Shown in pieces: positions 10,538 to 37,100 of a stretch of DNA of 64,000 nt. Each line of letters begins with the position of its first letter. Position 1 is the first letter of the stretch. Location of the stretch: contig NC_091142.1 in the NCBI RefSeq assembly GCF_041381155.1, forward strand, positions 23,088,362 through 23,152,361, in the 5' to 3' direction. The translations under genes and the position numbers were made by a program. The DNA is from Argopecten irradians. Lineage: Eukaryota; Mollusca; Bivalvia; Pectinida; Pectinidae. The notes under the pieces were generated by a model that was not told where the DNA came from, did no database searches, and saw nothing but the letters and a program-made list of their open reading frames with translations.

Positions 10538-11969
10538 GCTACAATGGAATGTGTTGTTTTCATTATCTACATCTTTGTTTATATTTTGTATAAATTCGCA
10601 CATGATTGATCGAGATAAAACCAATTATCAATGGTGTACCTCTGTTGCGATCAAAGCAAGATGTCTCAATTTAAGAGTTCATTTCTCTCTTCAATATCAG
10701 TTATTGTAATACCCTGCACGACATTTGTTAAGTTTGCTCATTTTTAAAACAATGGTAAAATGTAGGCTAGATGAACAATGAAGTATGTATATTTGGCTTT
10801 GTCAAAAAAAACGTACACTAAAAGTGTTTTATTTTGAAGAGAGCGTAAAATGTAAGTACACGTTCATATATCTATAGAATTTATTTTAATACAATTCGTA
10901 TCAAATAGTATTGAAAGAGATCTACGGGTAAGTAAAAACCAGACTCATAGGAAAGTAGTATAGTGCGTGTTCCTGATCCATACAAACAAATTACCAGAGA
11001 AAAAAAAAAAAAAAGAATATTAAAATTTTATTGATTTAGTACTTTATATATAAAATATTGCAACCGACATTGGTATCGTTCTTATCACTAGCAATTATCA
11101 ATCAAATAAATATATCCTTTTTAACATCAAATACAATAAACAATGATACATAATCAGAATGCATGTTAGTGGAGAAAGGAAATAATAAACGGTCGGTGAA
11201 CAATATAAAATCTTAATCAAATTGCCTCTGTTCAAGCAACTTCAAATACAAATATATGGTAGTTATAAGCTAGTGAAATGAGATTCATTGCCTTGTTAGA
11301 TTTAAGCAGATTGACCATAATTAAATAATGTGACACAATAGTCTTTATATTCGTTAAAAATGCTCACATAAAACTATATACCTTTGATTTAATAACATAT
11401 CGACCAGATACAGCGTATGAATATATGGCACCTTCTTAATTAAAATAGTGGCCTTAAAAGGCAACAAAAGATATTGTTAAAAGAAGTTAAGTAACTCAAC
11501 CGTGGTATAGAATTATATGTATGTGTACATATTGTATTTAAAGAAACATAAAATATTTAATACTTCAATGAGACAAGAACTTTCTATACGGTATAATAAT
11601 ACAGTATACTATAATCTGTAAATACAATGTAATACCATAGGGCTAACATAAATCAGCAAGAAAGGTTTTAATTTTCCGAGCATGAGTGGCACAGAGTGAT
11701 ACACTATTTCAACACAATTCTTTGGTTACGCCTCATTCAAATACAAACTAAATGATAACAGTTATACAAATTACACATGCTTTAGATTCATAATAACTAT
11801 ATTCTTAAAATAATTTTATAACAGCTACTTAATATGGAAACATAAAATGTTTAATATGTACTATTTTGTTCAGATATTAAAACTATTATTAAACCATTGC
11901 ATCCTACAAATTAGTAATGAGATCGGTTGAAACTATGAAATTTTAACATTTAAGAGTCATCTTAAAGAC
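10538..11969. other. Convergent intergenic region, no gene seen
   Basis: AT-rich sequence between the 3' end of the beta-helix gene and the minisatellite below NTAQ1. It may hold part of the NTAQ1 3' UTR (minus strand). No domain, RNA or clear repeat was recognised. Confidence 0.5.
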
Positions 11970-12895
11970 ACCAATATTAACATTTAACATTGTGTGCTAC
12001 AGGGAGTAATCCTAGTGACACCTATATTAATATTTAACATTGTGTGCTACAGGGAGTAATCCTAGTGACACCTATATTAATATTTAACATTGTGTGATAC
12101 AGGGAGTAATCCTAGTGACACCTATATTAATATTTAACATTGTGTGCTACAGGGAGTAATCCTAGTGACACCAATATTAAATATTTAACATTGTGTGCTA
12201 CAGGGAGTAATCCTAGTGACACCTAATATTAATATTTAACATTGTGTGCTACAGGGAGTAATCCTAGTGACACCAATATTAATATTTAACATTGTGTGCT
12301 ACAGGGGCACCAATATTAATATTAACATTGTGTGCTACAGGGAGTAATCCTAGTGACACCATATTAATATTTAACATTGTGTGCTACAGGGAGTAATCCT
12401 AGTGACACCAATTTAAATTTAACATTGTGTCTACAGGGAGTAATCCTAGTGACACCATATTAATATTTAACATTGTGTGCTACAGGGAGTAATCCTAGTG
12501 ACACCATATGTGTGATATTTAACATTGTGTGCTACAGGGAGTAATCCTAGTGACACCTATATTAATATTTAACATTGTGTGCTACAGGGAGTAATCCTAG
12601 TGACACCAATATTAATATTTAACATTGTGTGCTACAGGGAGTAATCCTAACATGGAGTGCTACAGGGAGTAATCCCAGCGACACCAATATTAAATAATTA
12701 ACATGGTGTGCTACAGGGAGTCATCCTAGTGACACCTATATTAATATTTAACATTGTGTGCTACAGGGAGTAATCCTAGTGACACCAATATTAATATTTA
12801 ACATTGTGTGCTACAGGGAGTAATCCTAGTGACACCAATATTAATATTTAACATTGTGTGCTACAGGGAGTAATCCTAGTGACACAATTATTAAA
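11970..12895. repeat. 50-bp minisatellite, about 19 units
   Basis: Units of about 50 bp containing TGTGTGCTACAGGGAGTAAT followed by CCTAGTGACACC and an AT-rich TAATATTTAACA segment. Most units differ at only a few bases; a few are shortened (around 12301 and 12650). Diverged units continue to about 13008, where a TTGTGTTCAACAAGGAGTCA-type unit runs across the NTAQ1 stop codon. The array lies in the 3' UTR or immediate 3' flank of NTAQ1. Confidence 0.9.
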
Positions 12896-13004
12896 CATTT
12901 TAGTAGTGTGTGATATTGGGAGCCACACTAATATTAAATATTTAAGATACCAGTTTAAATATCAATATTGTGTTCAACAAGGAGTCATCCTATTGACGTC
13001 AACA

Positions 13005-16000
13005 TTAACTCTTTGGCTTTTTGGAAAATTTGTGTACAAGTCCTTCAAAGTCCAGCACAGATCCTACTCCTTTAGCTGGGTCCATAGATATAAAGTCGTG
13101 TATGTTGTTTGTGGAATCTGAAAATTAAATTCCAGGTTCTTAAATCTCATTAGACATACAAGTAGTACTACAAATTTTAAGATATATTACAGAAATAATA
13201 AACATGTTTATTTCAAATAGATGTATTTATGATCAATGTTGCAATAAAATATAAGTGAGCTCAGTATTATAGATCCCCATTTGTATTAAACGTAACAAAC
13301 CATCAGTAAGAGAGCTTTTCGTACTATACAATAACAAATTAAGAATCTAATATGGTATTACATATGAGAGTTTTGTGATACCAATACTTTTTTGTTGCAA
13401 GATCGCAAAATTGCAACACTAAAACTTTTTAACTTTTGAAATTAAAAATTGATGTTTTCATGGTAAAAATAACAGGGTATTTGAAAAAAAAATGCTTGGT
13501 TATTTCTGCAATCACCTTTAAATATCGAATGACGTACTTATGCGATATTGTACAAAATTAATGCAAACACTGCATTGGCATATATGCTGTATTATTTGGT
13601 AACACAGTAATTCAATATGTATAACAGGAAATATAATCATATATATTTCGTTGAATAACGCATTTCATATATAGAATTGAAAGCATTGTTTCATTAGTTC
13701 TACATGAAGAACTTCATAAAGGATATTGAACAACAAAGAAAGACTGTGTTCCATACTTTTCAAAAAGCAATGACAGTTGTTACAGATAACAGCATTTCAA
13801 CCACTTGCACAAAAACCTTAAAAGATGCCCCATCGCCGACAGAGCATAAACAATACCCATCATTTGAACAACAACTAGTGTTTAATAAACACAAAAAAAT
13901 AATGTAAAATAGTTTATGATGTTTTTGGTGTATGAGCTATCAGTACTTCATTCCATGTAAGACATAGTGTCATGGAATTCTTTTCGGATGCAATTATTAA
14001 TATACATTTGTATAATATGTTTATGCTGAAGTGAAATCAGAAACTCAAACTATTAAATGGTGGTAACGGTGTAAGGTAATTAACTTTTGTAACTGAAAAA
14101 AAACACTTAATTCGTCTGCTCCGGTTTTGATAGATAAACCATACCATTTGTCTGAGGTGTGGTATCTTTAACGAATAAAATCACTGTCACTGAACTGATT
14201 ACAATAACCTTGTCTCCAATTAGTAGCTAACCAGTGGGTAATGTAAAAAGCTTTAATTACCCGACGTTTGTATAAATGGATATGATGGTAGCTCACTAAA
14301 CTTACCCAACGTTTGTATACATGGATATGATGGTAGCTCACTAAACTTACCAAACGTTTGTATACATGGATATGATGGTAGCTCACTAAGTGTACCTGAC
14401 GTTTGTATACATGGTTATGATGGTAGCTCACTAAGTTTACCTGACGTTTGTATACATGGATATGATGGTAGCTCACTAAGTGTACCTGACGTTTGAATAC
14501 ATGGACATGATGGTTGCTCACTAAACTTACCAAACGTTTGCATACATGGATATGATGGTAGCTCACTAAGTGTACCTGACGTTTGTATACACAGAAATGA
14601 TGGCTGCTCATTACGCTTAACTGACGTTTATATACAAAAATATGTACATGGATATGATGGCGGCTCACTAAAACATTATTTACCTGACGGTAACTTAACG
14701 GTAGCTCACTAAGTTTACCTGACGTTTGTATATGGACATGGACTTACGTAATAACGGTAGCTCACAAGTTTACTGACGTTGTTCCATTAATGCTAGCTCA
14801 CTTTTCCTGAAGATTGTATACATGGATATGATGGCGGCTCACTAAGCTTATCTGGCATTATTATGCATAGAAATGGTGGCTGCTCACTAAGTTTACCTGA
14901 TGTTTGTATACATGGATATGATGGTAGCTCACTAAGTTTACCTGTCGTTTGTATAAATGGATATGATGGCAACTCACTGGTTTCACTGAGTTTACCCTGT
15001 CGATATGATGATCATAGTTTACTGACGTTTGTATACATGGATATGATGGCGACTCACTAAGTTTACCTGACGTTTGTATAAATGGATATGATGGTAGCTC
15101 ACTAAGTTTACCTGACGTTTGTATACATGGATATGATGGCGACTCACTAAGTTTACCTGATGTTTGTATAAATGGATATGATGGTAGCTCACTAAGTTTA
15201 CCTGACGTTTGTATACATGGATATGATGGCAACTCACTAAGTTTACCTGACATTTGTATACATGGATATGATGGCGGCTCATTAAACTTACCTGACGTTT
15301 GTATACATGGATATGATGGCGGCTCACTAAGCCACTGTTTGTTGGCATCCAACATGTGAGATCTGTCGGAGGCAAATATCGATAGGAACTCAGACCCAGG
15401 TATTACCCGAAATTTTCTGAAATATCCATAATTCATTTTCAGGTTTTTGGTTTCATGTTATAATGTTCCTATACATCTACATATTAAGCAACATGTCTTT
15501 GGTAATATAAATTAATTATTAGCCTAACGTTAGTACTGTATATCAAACAACATGAGTCTAAACAACATGTGTCTAGCTTTGTACATTAGGTAATATCAGC
15601 ATAACTGTTGAAAAGTAGATTTAGGCAACATTGACAAGAGTTTGTTTCTGTGAATACCAGTCAATTTAAATATGTGTGGTAATGTATAATGAGTTAAACA
15701 TACTACTTTTTGCATATATATAATTTATATGATAGCCTAGCTGTGGTAGTACTGAAGGCTAACTGCATTATACTTAACCATGGTACTGTAAGCCAGTTAT
15801 TATACTAACTGTGCAATCTGTGGCACTGGCTGTCGACAATGATCATCTTGCCTGAGAAACTCTTGGCTGTAAGGCAGTTTTAAAATGACTGAACTGTAGT
15901 AGCCCATTACTTACCTGTGATATTGCTTTTTCAGTGTTAAGTTTGGTCTGATACCCTTGGCTGTATACTCGGAGAAGTCACAAGGAAAAGGCAGTTTGGT

Positions 16001-19000
16001 ATCTAGGTCATACACTAGGGAAGTATCATCATCATTGTAGATACATATCACATGGTAGTCCTATTAAAAACAATAATATATTATAGCAACAGGCCAAATG
16101 GGCTAAAGTTGCTCACCCTTTTTGAAACTACAGTTTCAAAAATTGCCTGTGATCTTACATGAAGGTCAATGTTGTTATTCATTTAAACAAACTGGTAACC
16201 TTATATCGCAGCATGCTAGAGGCCCAATGTCCCTGGACTCTTGTTGTAACAGAAAAGGATGTTATTTAAAAGTTGACTTTGCTTACCCTTTGACCAAGTG
16301 GCTAATGAATGTAATCAAGGTTTGTTTACTTTTCCAACATGGACATTAATACTAAAATGGACAAAACAACTGTTTATTATAATTGTCTGACATAGACAAT
16401 TTTAAACTGTCATAATGGTTAATATACATTTTTATTATATGACAGGTGCTTTTGTTGTCTTTTGATTGGCCGATACGCTTCTCAGAAGTATTCATCAACT
16501 GCAATATCAACCCCGAAATTGGCAGCGAAAAGCACGCAAGGTTACTGGAATCAATTTTGACATCGAGTTGTACCCAAATAAAGTGTAACGCGAGTTTCCC
16601 TCATTCAGTGACGTCGGAATAATCTATTGTGACGTCATTATTATAGTTTGCAACATATATGGTGGAAGGCAGCAAGTTTGCTGCGATCAACAGAAATGAA
16701 CTGCAAACTTCAATTTATGGAAAATGTTCAAGAACGCAAGAGGGGCTGCAGTTGATACAATATTCCGTGGCTCTATCAGTCTATAGCGTTAGCAAGAAGC
16801 ATTTGGATATTTACCATTCATACTACATGTAACTACTTTTGTAAACAGAAACAGAAACTCGAAAATCATATAACCGTCGGCCTCCAGCCTCGGGATATAT
16901 AACTTAATCGGGTTAATAACTCACCGTATCCACCTGAAAATAGGTCGATTATTGTATAATATTACCTTATTTAAATAAAATAAGAACAAAGCATTGTATG
17001 ACATGACATAGATCTGGGGCAAAGATTTAAGTTTTACTTTTATCCTCACTGTTAGAATTACTTCTTTGCCCTATATTTACTACGATTTGTACTTTGTATC
17101 CTACAGACATATGGCAGTAAGGATCCAGTGTTACCTGGAATACAACCATTGTTTTACTTCTTTGGCCATATCATATAAATATAAAAACATGTCAATTTAT
17201 ATTATTAGTTGTTATGAAATAATTGTTTTGATAAAGTAAAGGACTGCATTGAAAATAGGCAAACTTTTCACACCATTTAATTTGACTTTATGTGCATACT
17301 ATCATCAGTAATCTTATCCTTATAAGTATAATGACTGTATCTATATTTATTGAATATTAATATCTGGTGGTAATGACTGCAATAAACAATGTAAACAAAA
17401 GAAGTGAAATAAAGATCATCAGTGTCATCTTTCCATAGCTGTGAAGGTAAAGGAAAATGCTGTCATGAATAAATTCTTACCCATACTACAACTCCATCAG
17501 GTGAAGCACTCGATTTCTGGTAAAAGAGTGGAATCTAAAAAGCAAAGAAAAACATATCAAGGGAATTGATTCACTCAATGTTACTTTTGAAAATTACCAA
17601 GTTTTTCATCTCTGTTTCATTTCTGTTTTACTTCTGTAACATTAAGAATATTTAATAAATTAAAAAATTAAAAAGCTATTTGTTCAACTAGATTCAATGA
17701 AGTAATATACTACTTATATTTACATTTGTAATTTTAGTTTGATTAATATTTTGACGGAAAAAAAATACTTTATGTAACAACTAACAATTTGGTGCTTACA
17801 TATAAATATTATTTTTCCTGTCAATTTTGTTTGAAAACAATGAAGCAGTTTTTAGTTATGACGGGAAGAAAATAAAATAAAAGTTTTTAAACCAACCTGT
17901 TTGTTTTCATTTGATATAAACACACAATAGCAGTATGACATCTTGTTTGGACTTCTGTCCTTTACAAGCTCACAGAGTTTCCAAACATTTTCTTCACTGT
18001 AACAAACAAGTAACATATTAACAAAATTTTGATGGAATATCAATAACATGTACATACCATTTAAAGTACCTGAAATAGCCTGGTGGCAGCTATTTAATTT
18101 TCCTGAGTTTTTTTTGTGTATGTCCGTCAATACAACTAATACAGTATATATACATGTAGTTATATGGGGTTATCGGAAAAAAGAATTGAGGACAGAAGAA
18201 CAAACAAACAAAAAAGACTCTGCCGCAAGATGATAGAAATATTTCTAGTATTTTCACAAATTAATTCAGTTGTATGATATGTATAGTATATACATGTATA
18301 AAATTAAACAGAAAGAAATTATTAATGATTTTTTAAAGGTAATCACAAGTCCAACACAAATATTGACAAAAATAGATGGATTTTTTTGTCCAATACAGGG
18401 GTTTTGAGAGAATGATTTACAATTTTCCAGTGTATTGATTGTGACATCTCAAAAGTCATGTCCAAATTTGATGTCACAATTACCGGAGAGTGGGACTTAT
18501 CAATGACAATTTGTACTTTACCTACGTCGTTTTGGTATCTCGAAATTGAGGACAGAGGTATTCATTGAGAATTAAATGTTGTATCATATCATATATTGTG
18601 TGTGGCCAACAGGTCTGGATCAAGCTGGATAAATCCTTATGCAAAGGTAGAAGGTGACCGTATCACTTTCGTGCACTATTTACAATTTAAACTTCTATAT
18701 TTACAGAACCAGTTAATAGATTTCTAAAAGAAAACAGATTGATCAAATTCTGACAAATACTAGACAACATATATTATTGTGTAACAGGAAAGGAGAAAAT
18801 GTTTTTGTCATAGGTCTTGTCAAATATGTGTAACAAGAGAGAAGAAAATGTAGCGGCCAGACTGGGATTCGTACCCTGGACACTCCGAACACTAGCTGAA
18901 TGCTCTACCGCTGAGCTATCTGGTTATTGTTGATCAACTCAGTCCATTCCTGTTACACTCCCTCCCTCCTCTTTCAAAGTCTTCGCCCTCAAAGCCATGA

Positions 19001-19655
19001 GATCCTTCACCTTGTATCACCATGTTCAGATGGTATTTTAGTTGGGCGTCAATTTTGTAACAGGAGAGGCGAAAATATAGTAGCCAGACCGGAATTTCGA
19101 ACCTGGGACCTCTGAACACTAGCCAAATGCTCTATGGCTATGTCTAACCTGGTCACAAATGAACGAACCTGTCCAATCGCTACATGTGTACATTGTATAT
19201 GAAGCTACATGTAGATTCCACATGTACATAGCATTCAATTCACAGGTATGTGTAGCTTCGATATCACTATACACTGTACTGTGCAGTGTTTGTGTTTACA
19301 CTGTTCCTATATCCTTTTTACAGCTGTTTGAACTTTTAAGCATAGAGACCCAAAATGAACCCACATTTTTCCTGTGACTCCATTCCAATTACATAAGGGT
19401 ACCCCATTTCATCTGGGGACGGCTCCATTGATGGAACATCCAGTACAAAATCCATGTATGCACTCTAACATGTGTGAAGTACATGTACATGTAATCAAAG
19501 ACATAGAGCTATTGTGTAAAATATAGGTAAAACGAAAGTAAACAGATAATTTGAGTGTACAACATATCAGTAGGATAGTGTACTTACCAATAACAACTAG
19601 TGTATGTACATTTATCTGGAGTAGGAATTATATCAAGAATCTTGGCTTGATCCAT
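13005..19655 (-). CDS. NTAQ1: Protein N-terminal glutamine amidohydrolase (WDYHV1/NTAQ1), complete, six exons
   Basis: Deamidates N-terminal Gln to Glu in the Arg/N-degron pathway; the family is a small monomeric cytosolic/nuclear enzyme. Exons on the minus strand: 19655-19588, 17996-17897, 17534-17481, 16060-15915, 15416-15292, 13117-13005. All phases fit, giving 201 residues (human about 205). Motifs: [17 protein letters not shown] with catalytic Cys23, DYHV with His77 directly after VVVW, and [12 protein letters not shown] with Asp92, which together match the family's Cys-His-Asp triad. Later come [21 protein letters not shown] and DFISMDP. The catalytic Cys codon is split by intron 1 (TG|T). 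Start chosen at 19655: it is the first ATG before the CTYTSC motif and is only 187 nt from the divergent ISOC start. Intron 5 holds a 45-bp array copied from the end of exon 5, and a MITE. Confidence 0.95.
13818..14171. mobile_element. TTAA-flanked MITE, family A, copy 2
   Basis: Left end AAGATGCCCCATCGCCGACA and right end GAGGTGTGGTATCTTTAA match the other two copies, as does the interior (CATTTGAACAACAACTAGTG). Located in NTAQ1 intron 5, about 80 bp from the edge of the 45-bp array. Confidence 0.8.
14255..15337 (-). repeat. 45-bp tandem array derived from the 3' end of NTAQ1 exon 5, with repeated splice donors
   Basis: About 23 units of 45 bp, read on the minus strand as the exon-5 end (coding P-S-Y-P-C-I-Q-T-S), then CAG|GTAAGT or CAG|GTAAAC, then a short spacer that is again coding-like. 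The unit next to the real exon (ending 15292) has the best donor (CAGGTAAGT). Further units keep the donor core at 15247, 15202, 15157, 15112 and 15067. Forty-five is a multiple of three and the first six or so units are open in the exon frame. Units at the far end (below about 15020) are more diverged, with indels near 14690-14830 and 14980-15020. Confidence 0.92.
16061..17480 (-). other. NTAQ1 intron 3 with a truncated repeat end
   Basis: Near 16087-16120 the sequence AGGCCAAATGGGCT then GTTGCTCACC resembles the left end of the pearl-like element at 30565. AGAGGCCCAATGTCCCTGGA follows near 16218. CRE-like TGACGTC motifs occur near 16611 and 16631. The rest is AT-rich with no recognised feature. 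Confidence 0.4.
18398..18546. mobile_element. Palindromic MITE, family B, copy 2
   Basis: Diverged copy of the 7518-7704 element: GGTTTTGAGA at the left; CGTCGTTTTGGTATCTCGAA at the right; ATGTCACAATTACCGGAGAG inside, corresponding to CGTCATAATCACCGGAAGG. Lies in NTAQ1 intron 1. Confidence 0.65.
18850..19152 (-). mobile_element. tRNA-derived SINE, dimeric, copy 1
   Basis: Read on the minus strand, the left part is tRNA-like: A-box TAGCTCAGCGGTAGAGC (18902-18918) and B-box GGTACGAATCC (18865-18875). It has a plausible paired acceptor stem (CCAGAT/GTCTGG). A second, decayed tRNA-like head with B-box GGTTCGAAATTCC lies near 19090-19150. The linker contains GTTGGGCGTCAATTTTGTAA, shared with the copy at 20155. 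Confidence 0.75.
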
Positions 19656-19841
19656 GGTAAATTGTTTATTTAGCAACGTTTACATTGGTTTCCAAACGTC
19701 TTGTAGATCACGCTAAGCGCATCAATGACTACGACTGAAATGCCGGTAGTATAATCTTCCAGATGTTTGTTTTGAATGTGTATGGTCGCTCAAGCGTTTA
19801 AAGACCATGTGGGTCATGTGATCACTATTTTATCCGTAAAA
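19656..19841. promoter_or_regulatory. Divergent promoter between NTAQ1 (-) and ISOC (+)
   Basis: Only 186 bp separate the two start codons, so both 5' UTRs and core promoters must lie here or overlap the genes. The segment contains an E-box-like ATGTGATC/CATGTG stretch near 19805-19825 and no clear TATA box. Function is inferred from layout. Confidence 0.65.
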
Positions 19842-22800
19842 ATGGCTTCAGGAAAGCGTCTCGGCAATCTCGCGCTGGACAAGACAGTGATATTTGTGTG
19901 TGACATGCAAGAACGATTTCGTCCGGCTATCAGTTATTTTGCGGAGATCGTTGAAGTCGCAGGAAGAATTGTAAGATCAAATTTAGAGCAAAAAAAGTGC
20001 TACATATCATGTGTACCACATGCAGGTGCCTTGCCCTTGGTCAGTTTGTTCTGTAAAAATACAAAAACATATGAGATAAATTATACATTTTATAGCATCC
20101 CCTTACAGTACTATATATACAATATATACATATATACTTATGTATAGGAGAAATGTAGCGGGCAGACCGGGATTTGAACAAGAGACCCTTCGAACACTAT
20201 AGCCGAGTGCTCTAACCACTGAGTTACCTGGTCACCGATAATTGACCCAGTCCAATCCCGCCACACTCCTCCCTCCTTTCTTGAAGTCTTCGCCCTCGAA
20301 GACATACCAGACCCTTCCAAACACCAGTGACCACCAACACTGTAGGTTATGTAGTTGGGCGCCAATTCTGTAACGGGAGAGGAGAAAATGTAGGCCATAC
20401 TGGAATTCAAACCAGGGACCCTCCGAACACTAGCCGAGTGCTCTAAGGACTGAGCTACATATATGTACCTGGTCACCTATGATCGACCAAGTCCAATCTC
20501 ACCACAGTATATTACATGTACAAATGTATGCTGATATTGATAGGGAATGTGTATTATTTAACAAATATGACAAAAAGATACAAATGGAACTTAAATGTAT
20601 ATATGGTGCCATAAATGGATAGAAAAAAAAAACTGTGATTGATGACAATGATTATTGTATTATTCAAAGGAATGTACAGTAATGAGCCAGGGATCAATCT
20701 AGCTCTGATTTATTACCGTTTATGGGTAAATTTCCCCTCAAGGAATGAATTCCCCTCTGGCCTAAAATTCCCCTGAAGATTTAAAAATTCCCCATTTGAA
20801 GCTAAATAATGACCATTTTTGTAATGCAATTTCCCCTGTGATTTATTTTTCATTAATTTTTAAGACTTTTGTTTGCAAATTTCTTCATATTTATCATACA
20901 GCTACTGCATATTTAATGATAAACTCAAATTTTTCATTATTGAGCTTAAAAACTTGCTTTATTAAATCTAAAAATAAAATTACAATTTAGTTGTTTTACC
21001 GTACTTTTTCGTCAAAATGAATATAATTTTGATCCAAAATAAGAAGATTCAAATTCCCCTATATTTCGCCAAACTTTTCCCCTATTTTGAAAAAGGGAAG
21101 TTTCCCCAAAAACCTAGATTGATCCCTGTAAGCGCAAAGCACAAAGGTAACACACATGTAATCGGGTCAATATGTACAAGACTCAGTACATTACATTATC
21201 AATTAAGGCACTAGTGATATGGAAGTATAATTCCCCTTACAATTTTATATACATGTTTGAAAATTGTTTTAGTGAATATTACATATGTAATTAGCATTTT
21301 TTTTTGTCTTATTAGTATTTATGTAATATTTTTATTCAGATTGTTGAAGAATGGTAACCACTGATTTTATTCTTGCTTTATTTATTTTTTTGATTTGTTT
21401 TTAGCTTGAAGCCTCAAAACTTTTGAATATTCCAGTGATTGTAACAGAACAAGTAAGTTTCAATAATAATGACTTATCTACATGCATGTATGCATCTGCT
21501 ATATCCAGAATACAAAATTTAAAAAATATGAAAATCAAAGACCAAACTAAGAGTAATAAAACATATCAGTTACATGTTGATAATATTATTCACATTTACA
21601 TAAATTCATTTTGGAAGGAAGTTTTACTTCCTTATCAAAGTATAAAAAAAAAATATTTCAATAATTTGATTATAAGTAACAGTATACAATATAATAACAT
21701 TACTGACTTTCTATGCATTTTGAAAACAATTATTTGATACATCTTAATAAAAATACATTTTTTTCACCATGTTCAGTATCCTAAGGGTCTAGGCAGTACT
21801 GTGGAGGAGCTTGATATTAGCCATGCTGCAGGCAAGTTTGATAAGACAAAGTTCAGTATGATGTTACCAGAGGTGGAGGAAAAGCTGAAGACACTGTGTG
21901 GGGGAGATGTCCAACATGTTGTACTTCTTGGTATAGAGGTATGATCTACTATAGCTGGTTATTAAGTTGTGTTGATCAGCGATGTTGTTGTTAATATGTT
22001 ATCTGTGAGACGGTATTAAATGATGGATAATTATAGATCATGTATATAGCTGCTATTATTGTGAAAAATTGTAGTTTATTAAAATTACAGTTTAAGCTGA
22101 TACTTGATATGAACAGTTGTACTGTAGGTGTCTGAATCTGTAGAAATCATAACAGAATAAATATTCATTCAGGTGGTCTAATTTTATAGACAAAAATAAA
22201 AACATAGAATCTGATGTTAATTGAACAGCGAAGTACAGAAGAGGTTATATTAAAAGTAATAATAGAACTTTGTAATTAGCAGTTGCATGTATAATGAATC
22301 CAACATTTGTGACAAAGAATGTCATTTATTCTCCAGGCCCATGTGTGTGTCCAGCAGACTGTCATAGACCTGTTGTCTCGAGACATAGAAGTACATGTTG
22401 TAGCCGACGCCACTTCCTCCAGGTCACAAATGGACAGGGTATTTGCCTTTGAAGTGAGTCTGGATACTAATTAAAATGTTAATATCATCTACATTTAATT
22501 AATAAGAATTAGTACAATAGTGATAATTCTTATAAACAACTAAGGTCAATTGAGGTGGAGGAAAGTTGTGATACCTATCTGGCAACTTTGAACACAAAGC
22601 CTAAAAGTGGAAGTCCAGTGGTTGGAATACAAGAAAAGGCCTCTGCTACCACATCCCATAGATTTGTTTTAGTGTACAAGAGAAAGAAAGTTGTCACCAC
22701 AAAAATAACATTATTTCTGTGTATAAAGGGAGATAATTCAATCTTTTTGAGCCTTGATATTTCTTGTTCATTTTGATTATGTATTATATTTGAATTCACC

Positions 22801-30564: not shown

Positions 30565-32696
30565 ATGTAAAAATTATAAGAGGCCCAAATATCACGGCAT
30601 CGCTCACCTGGTTTGTAATGCCAAGTAATGTTCTGAATACAGGTTCATTGTTTCTTTTCTGAAGGAATTTTAATATTAACCTCTAAATCCCCTATTAGGC
30701 CCCACCCCTCCTGCCCCCAGGGGGTCAGAGCCAAAATTTATACAAGTTCTGTTCCCCTTCCCCCAAGGATGTTTGTGGCCAAATTTGGTTACAATCCATA
30801 CAGAACTCTATGACTAGTAGCGATTTAAAGAATTTACCTCTATTTCCCCTATTGGGCCCCGCCCCTCCTGCCCCCCGGGACCAGAGCCAAAATTTATACA
30901 AACTCAGTTCTTATTCTCCCAAGGATATTTCTGGCCAAATTTGGTTACATTCCATGCGGAACTCTGTGACTAGTAGCGATTTAAAGGATTTACCTCTATT
31001 TCCCCTATTAGGCTCCGCCCCTCCAGCCCCCGGGGGGCCAGAGCCAAAATTTATACAAGTTCTGTTCCCCTTCCCCCAAGGATGTTTGTGGCCAAATTTT
31101 GGTACATTCCATTCACAACTCTATGACTAGTAGCGATTTAAAGGATTTACCTCTATTTCCCCTATTGGGCCCCCGCCCCTCCTGCCCCTGGGTGATCAGA
31201 GCCAAAATTTATACAAGTACTGTTCCCCTTCCCCAAAGGTGTTTGTGTCTGATTTTGGTTACATTCCATGCCAAACTCTAGGACAAGTATCGATTTAAAG
31301 GATTTACCTCTATTTCCCCTATTGGGCCACGCCCCTCCTGCCCCTGGGGGATCAGAGCCAAAATTTATACAAGTTCTGTTCCCCTTCCCCCAAGGATGTT
31401 TGTGGCCAAATTTGGTTACATTTCATTCAGAACTCTATGACAAGTAGCGATTTAAAGGATTTACCTCTATTTCCCCTATTGGGCCCCGCCCCTCCTGCCC
31501 CCGGGGGGCCAGAGCCAAAATTTATACAAGTTCTGTTCCCCTTCCCCCAAGGATGTTTGTGGCCAAATTTGGTTCTAATCCATGCAGGACTCTATGACTA
31601 GTAGCGATTTAAAGGATTTACCTCTACTTCCCCTATTGGGCCCCGCCCCTCCTGCCCCTGGGGGATCAGAGCCAAAATTTATACAAGTTCTGTTCCCCTT
31701 CCCCCAAGGATGTTTGTGGCCAAATTTGGTTACATTTCATTCAGAACTCTATGACAAGTAGCGATTTAAAGGATTTACCTCTATTTCCCCTATTGGGCCC
31801 CGCCCCTCCTGCCCCCGGGGGGCCAGAGCCAAAATTTATACAAGTTCTGTTCCCCCTCCCCCAAGGATGTTTGTGGCCAAATTTGGTTCCAATCCATGCA
31901 GAACTCTATGACTAGTAGCGATTTAAAGGATTTACCTCTATTTCCCCTATTGGGCCCCACCCCTCCTGCCCCTGGGGGATCAGAGCCAAAATTTATACAA
32001 GTTCTGTTCCCCTTCCCCCAAGGATGTTTGTGGCTGATTTTGGTTACAATCCATGCCAAACTCTAGGACAAGTAGCGATTTAAAGGATTTACCTCTATTT
32101 CCCCTATTGGGCCCCGCCCCTCCTGCCCCTGGGGGGTCAGAGCCAAAATTTATACAAGTTCTGTTCCCCCTCCCCAAAGGATGTTTGTGGCCAAATTTGG
32201 TTCCAATCCATGCAGAACTCTATGACTAGTAGCGATTTAAAGGATTTACCTCTATTTCCCCTATTGGGCCCCGCCCCTCCTGCCCCTGGGGGATCAGAGC
32301 CAAAATTTATACAAGTTCTGTTCCCCTTCCCCCAAGGATGTATGTGGCTGATTTTGGTTACAATCCATGCCAAACTCTAGGACAAGTAGCGATTTAAAGG
32401 ATTTACCTTTATTTCCCCTATTGGGCCCCGTCCCTCCTGCCCCTGGGGGGTCAGAGCCAAAATTTATACAAGTTCTGTTCCCCCTCCCCCAAGGATGTTT
32501 GTGGCCAAATTTGGTTACAATCCATGCAGAACTCTAGGACAAGTAGCGATTTATAGGAAATGTTGACGGACGGACGGACGGACGGACGGACGACGGACGA
32601 CGGACGACGGACGACGGACGCCGCGCCATGACATAAGCTCACCGGCCCTTCGGGCCAGGTGATGTAAAAATTATAAGAGGCCCAAATATCACGGCA
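30565..32696 (+). mobile_element. Pearl-like element with 12-unit core, (ACGG)n, hairpin and 35-bp flanking direct repeats
   Basis: Starts with AAGAGGCCCAAAT and CGCTCACCTGG. The core at about 30672-32560 has 12 units of about 157 bp, each with CTCTATTTCCCCTATTGGGC and AGCGATTTAAAGGATTTACC. Then (ACGG)n/(ACG)n at 32565-32620 and a GGCCC-TTC-GGGCC hairpin at 32644-32656. The 35 bp from 30565 to 30599 recur exactly at 32662-32696. Open frames through the core are by-products of the repeat and resemble no protein. Confidence 0.85.
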
Positions 32697-34140: not shown

Positions 34141-37100
34141 ATTCAAAGGAACGTTCACAAATACACTATACAAGAATGACACAGTTAGCCCGATAGATAA
34201 GAGTAATAACAGCAATCAGACACACAAACTTTCACTTAAAGATCCCCCCTTAACGGCTTCGGTCACAGCTTCCCAATAAACATACATATAATATTTTCAA
34301 CTTGATATGTATGGCCCAACCATTCTAAGCACAGGAGAAAAGGGACAGTCAGCACCTGTCAATCATCGTAGCAGTTTCCACGGTAACAGAGATGAGGGCG
34401 GGTCTTAAAACTACGGCCATCATATAACTTCGTGTTCAGTTGTGACAATCTGCGTCACAAACAAATAAAAATCTGCAACTTTGGCACATTTCAGATTTTT
34501 ACAAAAAGATAAAAATAATAACAATATGCCATTAATTATTCATAAATACTTTTAAAATGTTACTTTTTGTTTGTCTTTCAAAACATTATAAATTAAATAG
34601 CTACTCTAACTTTTCCATCTAATCTAATACAAGGAGAAACGCAGCAGTGAACAAATTTTGGGGAGCTCTTATTTCCATAGTATAACATTACAATTACATA
34701 CACCAAACATGTATTTTGTATAGACATTATTTAAAGCTAGGTACAAAATGTATCTAAATCCCGGACGAACGGGTTTGTAAAATTGAAAGACAATAGTCGT
34801 TTTTAATCAATTTGTTCTCATTAATATGCGAGATGACGACACATGCATTGTAAAGCAAACTATTAAACACTATGTCAAAAGGTCAAAAAGTTGTTTAAAT
34901 TATTGACCTCTGACCTCTACTTGTGGTGACACGATTAAATATGGCTAATAGGAAACATTTAAAACACGCGCGGCCCATCGTTATTGTTGTAAATATTTAT
35001 ACAAAACACATATATCACCTTTAGCCTGTTGTATTCTAAAAACATAAATTATTTCAGATCTTTGAAGAAAATGTACAAAATACTGGTAGAATGAAATAAA
35101 TATCAGACTTTTTTTTATCTTATAATATAAATCTATCTCTGACACTACGGTTTTCTACTTGTTAACTATTTTGAGATCAAAGTTAACTTGGACTGAAACT
35201 AGTATTAGTTACGAAACGGAGAAAAACAAATTATAGTCGGGGTTAGAGCTACTGGGACACTAACTACAATATATCTGTATAATGTACTCCAGTCGCCACA
35301 ACGACGGAGTTCGATATACAGCTTCCTGGTCCATCAGAGGGGTGAACAACTAACACTTTAATGTTTGATAACAAGGACTCATTCTTTTAATAATGACATT
35401 TTCAACTTTTCATCATTTGTTGGCATATTCTAAATACGCAATTCTACTACAAATTTTAAAATGTCTTATATTTTGGAATGAAATTCATAATTTTAATAAT
35501 TTGATTGAAAACATATTGGTTTTTACGTTTAATTAGTAATATTCCTGCATATGTATGTATCTTGTTTTCGTAAAATAATCTTATTGTAAACCAGCTAGTC
35601 TCTCCTTATGTTAAAGAAATCCTGAACCGATTAGTTGGCCTCCGATAGGACACAGGACTACACTACCTTTTGGACAGATCGGGGTACAGAGATATTTGGA
35701 TTCCAAGTGATGTTACACACACTTTATAGTTAACACAAGATACTGTACATTCACTACTAAACTCCAGTATTCTCTAGGTCACGTGGACAAACGTCACAGC
35801 GCAGGACTGGTTGAGATTTCTCCATAAACCACATTTGTAGAGGTTCAATTATTAATAATATTTTAGGACGCTGGAAAGTTTATCTTCAAATTATTTGTCT
35901 TAAAAAATTCTTAATTTCACATGCAAAATATTTCAGAGATATTTAAAATCTTATTTTGTATTCAGAGTTCCAAAAGCTTTCTTTCATTAAAGGTTTTGGT
36001 ACTAATTATTACTTCTGTATCATACCCAAATGAAGTAAAACGTAATAATAAAAGACAGACGGAAGAAGATATGTTTCAAAATTTGAATGGACAGTCCAAA
36101 ATCATGTCACGATGTCACGGGACCAAGAGAACTTTGGGATACTTGGAAATGTTTTACTACAATAAATAACATATACATCATATGCACATCTTATGAATGC
36201 TACACTAGTGTCGATGTAGACAGGGTATATCCCTTAAATATATAGATGTCTACTAGGTTCCCCTATTTCTACTTGAATGGTCAAAAGATTACATGAGTAC
36301 TGGGTTTTTCCTATTCTATATTCACAAAGACAAAACACACAAAATTTTCCCTGAGATCTTGTGTTTCATGGCAAACATGCAGGCCTCTGCAAACCTTATA
36401 CAAATTCAATAAATAAATTAATAAAATATTGAATGTAATACTAGTTTCAGTCCAAATGAATATACCCTATAAATACAACGAATAGCATTCCATTTGTTCA
36501 AAACGGCTCCCTCAGAAAAATGCCTGAAATCTGCCCGACGTAGGAAACGCCTAGGTTCGATGTTTCCTCTCATGATTGTATGTATGTGTGTATGTATATA
36601 TATATATATAACAGTCAGATATTTACTTTTGGGAGTACAACCTTATTGGTAAGAGTTTTGATACATCATATCAGATAGATGATCAGGCACAACCATGTGG
36701 GTCTGGGGTAGGAAACAATCATTTATTCATTAATCGGACACAACCTTTCGAGTAAAACAGTAGGACTAACTTTTAGGGTCAAGATGGGTCAAATACAACC
36801 TTTAATGGTCATGATTAGGATACAACCTTTTGGGTCCATGCATTATCTTTTGGATACAAAGGTCAGGTAGAGCCTATCTGGTTCAAGGAACACTACCTTT
36901 GGGTCGGGGTTATCAAACAACTTGCCCGGATTAGGGAATACATCTCAAATGCGAATAATTTAATACAATTTGGACCTAGATCACAACTATGACAAGGATG
37001 TTAGTATTGTGATATATATATATACATACGTACATCTTTTATCTAACACTTCCAAGACTTCAGACTGCTGGTTTCGAGAGCAATAGAAGGAATGTGGTTG

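Follow-up and report, generated by a model that had tools for sequence, protein, structure and literature searches.

This study analyzed a 64,000-nucleotide stretch of DNA (the window) and identified an intact NTAQ1-type gene on its minus strand. Six exons, the edges of which were placed by splice signals and homology, were joined into a product of 201 aa without stops (Table 1). The product matched the Pfam profile PF09764 (Nt_Gln_amidase) with an E value of 1.5e-70 and 237 bits (cut-off, 27) over profile positions 1-183 of 184. It also matched human NTAQ1 (3c9q) with an E value of 1.5e-60, and this alignment was gapless across the exon 5/6 junction. The results bear out the gene identity proposed in an earlier note on this DNA, and the gapless human alignment over the junction indicates that the donor at 15292 yields the conserved protein. 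The stretches SCYCEENVW, WDYHV, and YDLDT of the predicted protein aligned with the human stretches holding Cys28, His81, and Asp97, which form the catalytic triad of human NTAQ1 according to the available part of PMC4214742. No relatives of NTAQ1 were found in viral_contigs. A tRNA-Thr call in intron 1 resembles the head of a short interspersed element of the tRNA-derived type. A reading frame lying head to head with NTAQ1 presumably resembles an isochorismatase-domain protein.

Table 1. Features of the window; positions are counted from its first letter, and a slash marks a splice boundary.
Feature	Position	Strand	Basis or remark
NTAQ1 exon 1	19655..19588	minus	splice signals and homology
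NTAQ1 exon 2	17996..17897	minus	splice signals and homology
NTAQ1 exon 3	17534..17481	minus	splice signals and homology
NTAQ1 exon 4	16060..15915	minus	splice signals and homology
NTAQ1 exon 5, 125 nt	15292..15416	minus	acceptor ATTTCAG/AAAA, donor CAG/GTAAGT
True exon 5 donor CAG/GTAAGT, exon end 15292	15283..15294	minus	U1 pairing -12.1 kcal/mol, best in the array
Units 1 to 5 of the 45-bp array, end donors 15247, 15202, 15157, 15112, 15067	15067..15291	minus	all CAG/GTAAAC, frame to exon 6 kept
Unit 6 (15066..15023, open, 1 nt lost at donor) and start of degenerate middle	14996..15066	minus	TCA/GTAAAC, -1.9 kcal/mol
NTAQ1 exon 6, coding part, TAA stop at 13007..13005	13005..13117	minus	acceptor TTTTCAG/ATTCC
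50-bp array region, second minisatellite in NTAQ1	11967-13008	minus	degenerate first unit covers 13008..12946
tRNA-Thr (anticodon agt), in NTAQ1 intron 1	18853-18925	minus	called by ARAGORN
Reading frame head to head with NTAQ1	19776-20147	plus	no Pfam match at 0.001
157-bp tandem array	30675-32558		12 copies, 90% matches

Tandem Repeats Finder placed a 45-bp array at 14257..15331 on the minus strand, with 24.0 copies, 76% matches, 8% indels, and a score of 1049. A wraparound alignment divided the array into 24 units, numbered 0 to 23, and unit 0 is the last 40 nt of NTAQ1 exon 5 (15331..15292). Each unit comprises 40 nt of the exon 5 end, CTTAGTGAG...CAAACGTCAG, followed by 5 nt of the intron 5 start, mostly GTAAA, GTAAG, or GTACA. 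At its far end, the array breaks at GTAA and passes into other intron 5 sequence. Units 1 to 6, 9, and 17 to 23 are regular, except that one base is missing at the end of unit 6; units 7, 8, and 12 to 15 contain indels, and units 10, 11, and 16 are 45 nt long yet more diverged. The earlier note had described a real array of period 45, derived from the end of NTAQ1 exon 5 and its donor, with the exon ending at 15292, and all of these points held, the first copy being the exon end itself. The exonic part of the unit, however, had been given as approximately 29 nt and is 40 nt.

A 24-nt core of the unit matched 18 places in the window at up to three mismatches, all on the minus strand within the array, compared with a maximum of 0 in 100 shuffles; this result excludes a chance origin of the array. 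When the first five copies (15331..15112) were compared with the window by using blastn, with 14201-15400 masked, the only place outside the array was one of 19 nt (36851-36869; E = 0.13), which was matched by three copies. The exact 32-nt unit core had 0 matches in viral_contigs. The proximal array (15331..15067) showed no stronger RNA structure than shuffled sequences (z = -0.35), with 72 of 200 shuffles being equally or more stable.

We compiled the 24 unit boundaries by hand from the unit alignment and the gene join. G/GTA was present at 19 boundaries, a weak CA/GTAAAC at two, and no GT at the other three; GT was kept at 21 of the 24, and CAG/GT was found at 14. The units had previously been described as carrying CAG/GTAAGT or CAG/GTAAAC. 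The second form is indeed present at the five in-frame copies, but CAG/GTAAGT occurs only once within the array, at donor 15292. The other boundaries with GTAAGT (14531, 14351, and 14306) have TTG, TTG, and TGG, respectively, on the exon side, and three boundaries (14576, 14486, and 14396) read CAG/GTACAC.

Donor strength was expressed as the ViennaRNA pairing to the U1 5' end, a measure that takes no account of exon-definition signals and does not amount to a splice-site model. By this measure, the claim that the first donor is the best was confirmed, because donor 15292 paired at -12.1 kcal/mol, compared with -10.3 kcal/mol at best for the remaining boundaries (14306, TGG/GTAAGT). The five in-frame copies each paired at -8.3 kcal/mol, and two boundaries were nearly dead at -1.9 kcal/mol. 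Thirteen copied donors (14 with donor 1) paired at -8.0 kcal/mol or lower, a level that none of the 70 other GT sites of intron 5 reached. The other four donors of NTAQ1 paired at -10.5, -8.0, -9.2, and -13.7 kcal/mol, the value of -8.0 belonging to the intron 2 donor CAG/GTTGGT. Because these donors span -8.0 to -13.7 kcal/mol, the array copies are weak yet within the gene's own range.

If splicing used donors 2 to 6, the protein would gain 15, 30, 45, 60, or 75 residues, in agreement with the in-frame insertion that had been proposed; the predicted products via the donors from 15247 to 15067 comprise 216, 231, 246, 261, and 276 aa and retain the normal C-terminus. About six further units had been claimed to be open, and six are open in the exon's frame; the donor of the sixth, however, has lost a G, leaving five donors that keep the frame. 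The normal C-terminus was not obtained from the remaining 18 boundaries. At 15023, 14996, 14942, and 14897, the frame is shifted and a stop is predicted by length arithmetic at codon 271 to 313 in exon 6, and at the other 14, of which three lack GT, a stop is predicted at codon 307 inside the array. Some copies alter residues common to the human and predicted proteins (P to L or S, and C to F). The open frame was rejected as a sign of selection, since units 1-6 contain no stop in three of the six frames (two of the three on the minus strand and one of the three on the plus strand), and two of these open frames are not that of the exon. As 45 is divisible by 3, a single unit free of stops suffices to make the whole array stop-free.

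Divergence was compared among 18 of the 24 units, with units 7, 8, 12, 13, 14, and 15 dropped for indels, and the mean pairwise difference was 0.138. The neighbouring 90-bp dimers of units 3+4 and 5+6 differ at one of 90 positions (the base lost after unit 6 being uncounted), and this near identity points to a probable recent expansion next to exon 5. Column variation across the 18 units averaged 0.059 at GT, 0.069 at columns 7-42, and 0.130 at CAG, and was highest (0.288) at +5 and +6. Since variation at GT is close to that at columns 7-42, the comparison reveals no clear mark of selection keeping the copied donors. The -1 G was invariant in the 18 units compared, and two boundaries outside the compared columns lack a G. 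Codon differences from the consensus numbered nine synonymous and eight non-synonymous in six proximal units, compared with 17 and 31, respectively, in eleven other units; this tilt, from small counts in non-independent units and without a statistical test, would lean towards constraint in the proximal units.

None of the three GTAAGT boundaries other than the first has CAG on its exon side, a pattern that would fit an avoidance of perfect donor copies; two of the three resemble copies of what is likely one event, and the pattern was not counted as a test. GTAAGT is present both at these boundaries and at the donor of exon 5 itself, which is suggestive, though not proof, of GTAAGT being an older founding intron start than GTAAAC. 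The exon copy encodes a segment common to the human enzyme (YPCIET in the human protein and YPCIQT here), and exon 5 is therefore the likely source of the array. For the same reason, capture of the exon end from a pre-existing satellite was rejected as unlikely.

We consider it likely that the array is a minisatellite that arose by tandem duplication across the exon 5 donor, that its copies are weaker decoys, and that splicing is mostly normal. The order of events, the dominant use of donor 1, and a low level of leakage are what we infer, as follows. A segment across the exon 5/intron 5 edge (40 nt of exon and 5 nt of intron) would have been duplicated in tandem, and slippage or unequal exchange would then have raised the copy number to about 24. 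The resulting minisatellite would begin inside exon 5 and fill the start of intron 5. The spliceosome would mostly take donor 15292, because this donor is both the nearest to the exon and the strongest. Occasional use of the next five donors would lengthen the protein in frame by 15 to 75 residues, and use of a later copy would end at a wrong-frame stop in exon 6 or at a stop inside the array. Findings that count against this reading are that, by U1 pairing alone, the decoys are non-negligible, with 13 copies at -8.0 kcal/mol or lower and the gene's own intron 2 donor at no better than -8.0 kcal/mol; that the codon differences would lean towards constraint in the proximal units; and that the -1 G is invariant in the 18 units compared.

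A different reading holds that donors 1 to 6 are all used and that splice choice, together with the array of each individual, sets an isoform ladder with 0 to 5 extra 15-residue blocks in a length-variable enzyme. The frame is kept to the true stop by the five downstream CAG/GTAAAC donors (216 to 276 aa), which pair slightly better than the gene's intron 2 donor (-8.3 versus -8.0 kcal/mol), and the catalytic Cys28, His81, and Asp97 of the human enzyme, as given in the available part of PMC4214742, lie upstream of the insertion point. We nevertheless regard this reading as unlikely: the five copies all have GTAAAC, with a CAG/GTAAGT donor at least 45 nt upstream of them; frames other than that of the exon are open as well (three of six in total); some copies change the human-common residues (P to L or S, and C to F); and an insertion would split a stretch that aligns gapless to the human protein. 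That the length of NTAQ1 is a readout of splice-site choice and array copy number, with up to five 15-residue blocks after YPCIQTS and with recent 90-bp expansions altering the ladder between individuals, appears quite unlikely.

The copied donors may instead putatively bind U1 unspliced, as a decoy or enhancer array that affects splicing speed or guards the intron from early polyadenylation. The excess of donors at -8.0 kcal/mol or lower (13 copies, compared with 0 of the 70 GT sites that intron 5 has outside the array) is consistent with this role, which we consider very doubtful because the GT columns are about as variable as the rest of the unit (0.059 versus 0.069), three of the 24 boundaries lack GT, and two are nearly dead at -1.9 kcal/mol. 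It is highly improbable that introns are being born in the array, with TCAG and GTAA serving as acceptor and donor, respectively, and with whole units removed as new introns or by recursive splicing. Although AG/GT recurs at 45-nt steps, with CAG/GT at 14 of the 24 boundaries, and the available part of PMC4974935 describes introns spanning tandem AGGT copies in SPOG_01682 and SOCG_00815 of fission yeast, a typical unit, read directly from the sequence, has no pyrimidine tract in the approximately 20 nt preceding its AG. NTAQ1 reads correctly with the existing intron 5 alone, and no new intron is evident.

The minisatellite reading that we prefer can be set beside known systems. The NTAQ1 array is similar to ordinary minisatellites, other arrays of which are present in the same window, in its tandem growth, homogenised blocks, and degenerate stretches; it differs from them in that it includes coding sequence and a working donor. 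Some copies of a VNTR in human CBS are reportedly used in mRNA, in the work of Kraus 1998 and Lievers 2001. This 31-bp VNTR, c.1444_1467+7(16_21), comprises by its name 24 exonic and 7 intronic nt at the donor in 16 to 21 copies, and its length varies between people (PMC2630376, available part). As in NTAQ1, the repeat unit is an exon end with its donor and the first copy lies in the exon; in contrast to the NTAQ1 period of 45, which keeps the frame, 31 is not a multiple of 3, and the next CBS donor would shift the frame. A repeat across an exon/donor boundary is thus an architecture already known from human CBS, as far as the accessible text of that source describes it, and frame preservation is the distinctive property of the NTAQ1 array.

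Tandem duplication is treated as a genuine route of intron gain in the available part of a review (PMC3443670). The tandem-AGGT intron cases (ATP2A1 and the fission yeast genes SPOG_01682 and SOCG_00815) have copies with AG/GT at their junctions, like the NTAQ1 array. These cases, however, start from an exonic segment, which in a potato case (PMC4974935) is an acceptor-side boundary, and create a new intron (available parts of PMC4974935 and PMC3443670), whereas in NTAQ1 an intron that already existed received copies of its donor-side boundary. Judging from titles and abstract openings, no description of the NTAQ1 array was found among the papers listed from a partial literature collection. 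The array constitutes a natural series of near-identical donors placed at 45-nt steps behind one perfect donor, with the first five in the same frame, and such a series could serve to measure how donor strength and distance set splice-site choice. If the copies were used, the array would be a case of a minisatellite supplying an enzyme with extra coding blocks by way of splicing.

A 50-bp tandem array is present on the minus strand after the NTAQ1 stop codon, as overlapping Tandem Repeats Finder rows within 11967 to 12932. Its unit, when doubled, aligned to 13008..12946, stop codon included, with a score of 66, whereas the highest score among 60 other stretches of the window was 26. On the minus strand, the interval from 13005 to 11000 has its first AATAAA or ATTAAA at 11855, beyond this array; the array may therefore lie in the NTAQ1 3'UTR. 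Both NTAQ1 arrays touch an exon end or stop codon. A further tandem array in the window has a unit of 157 bp.
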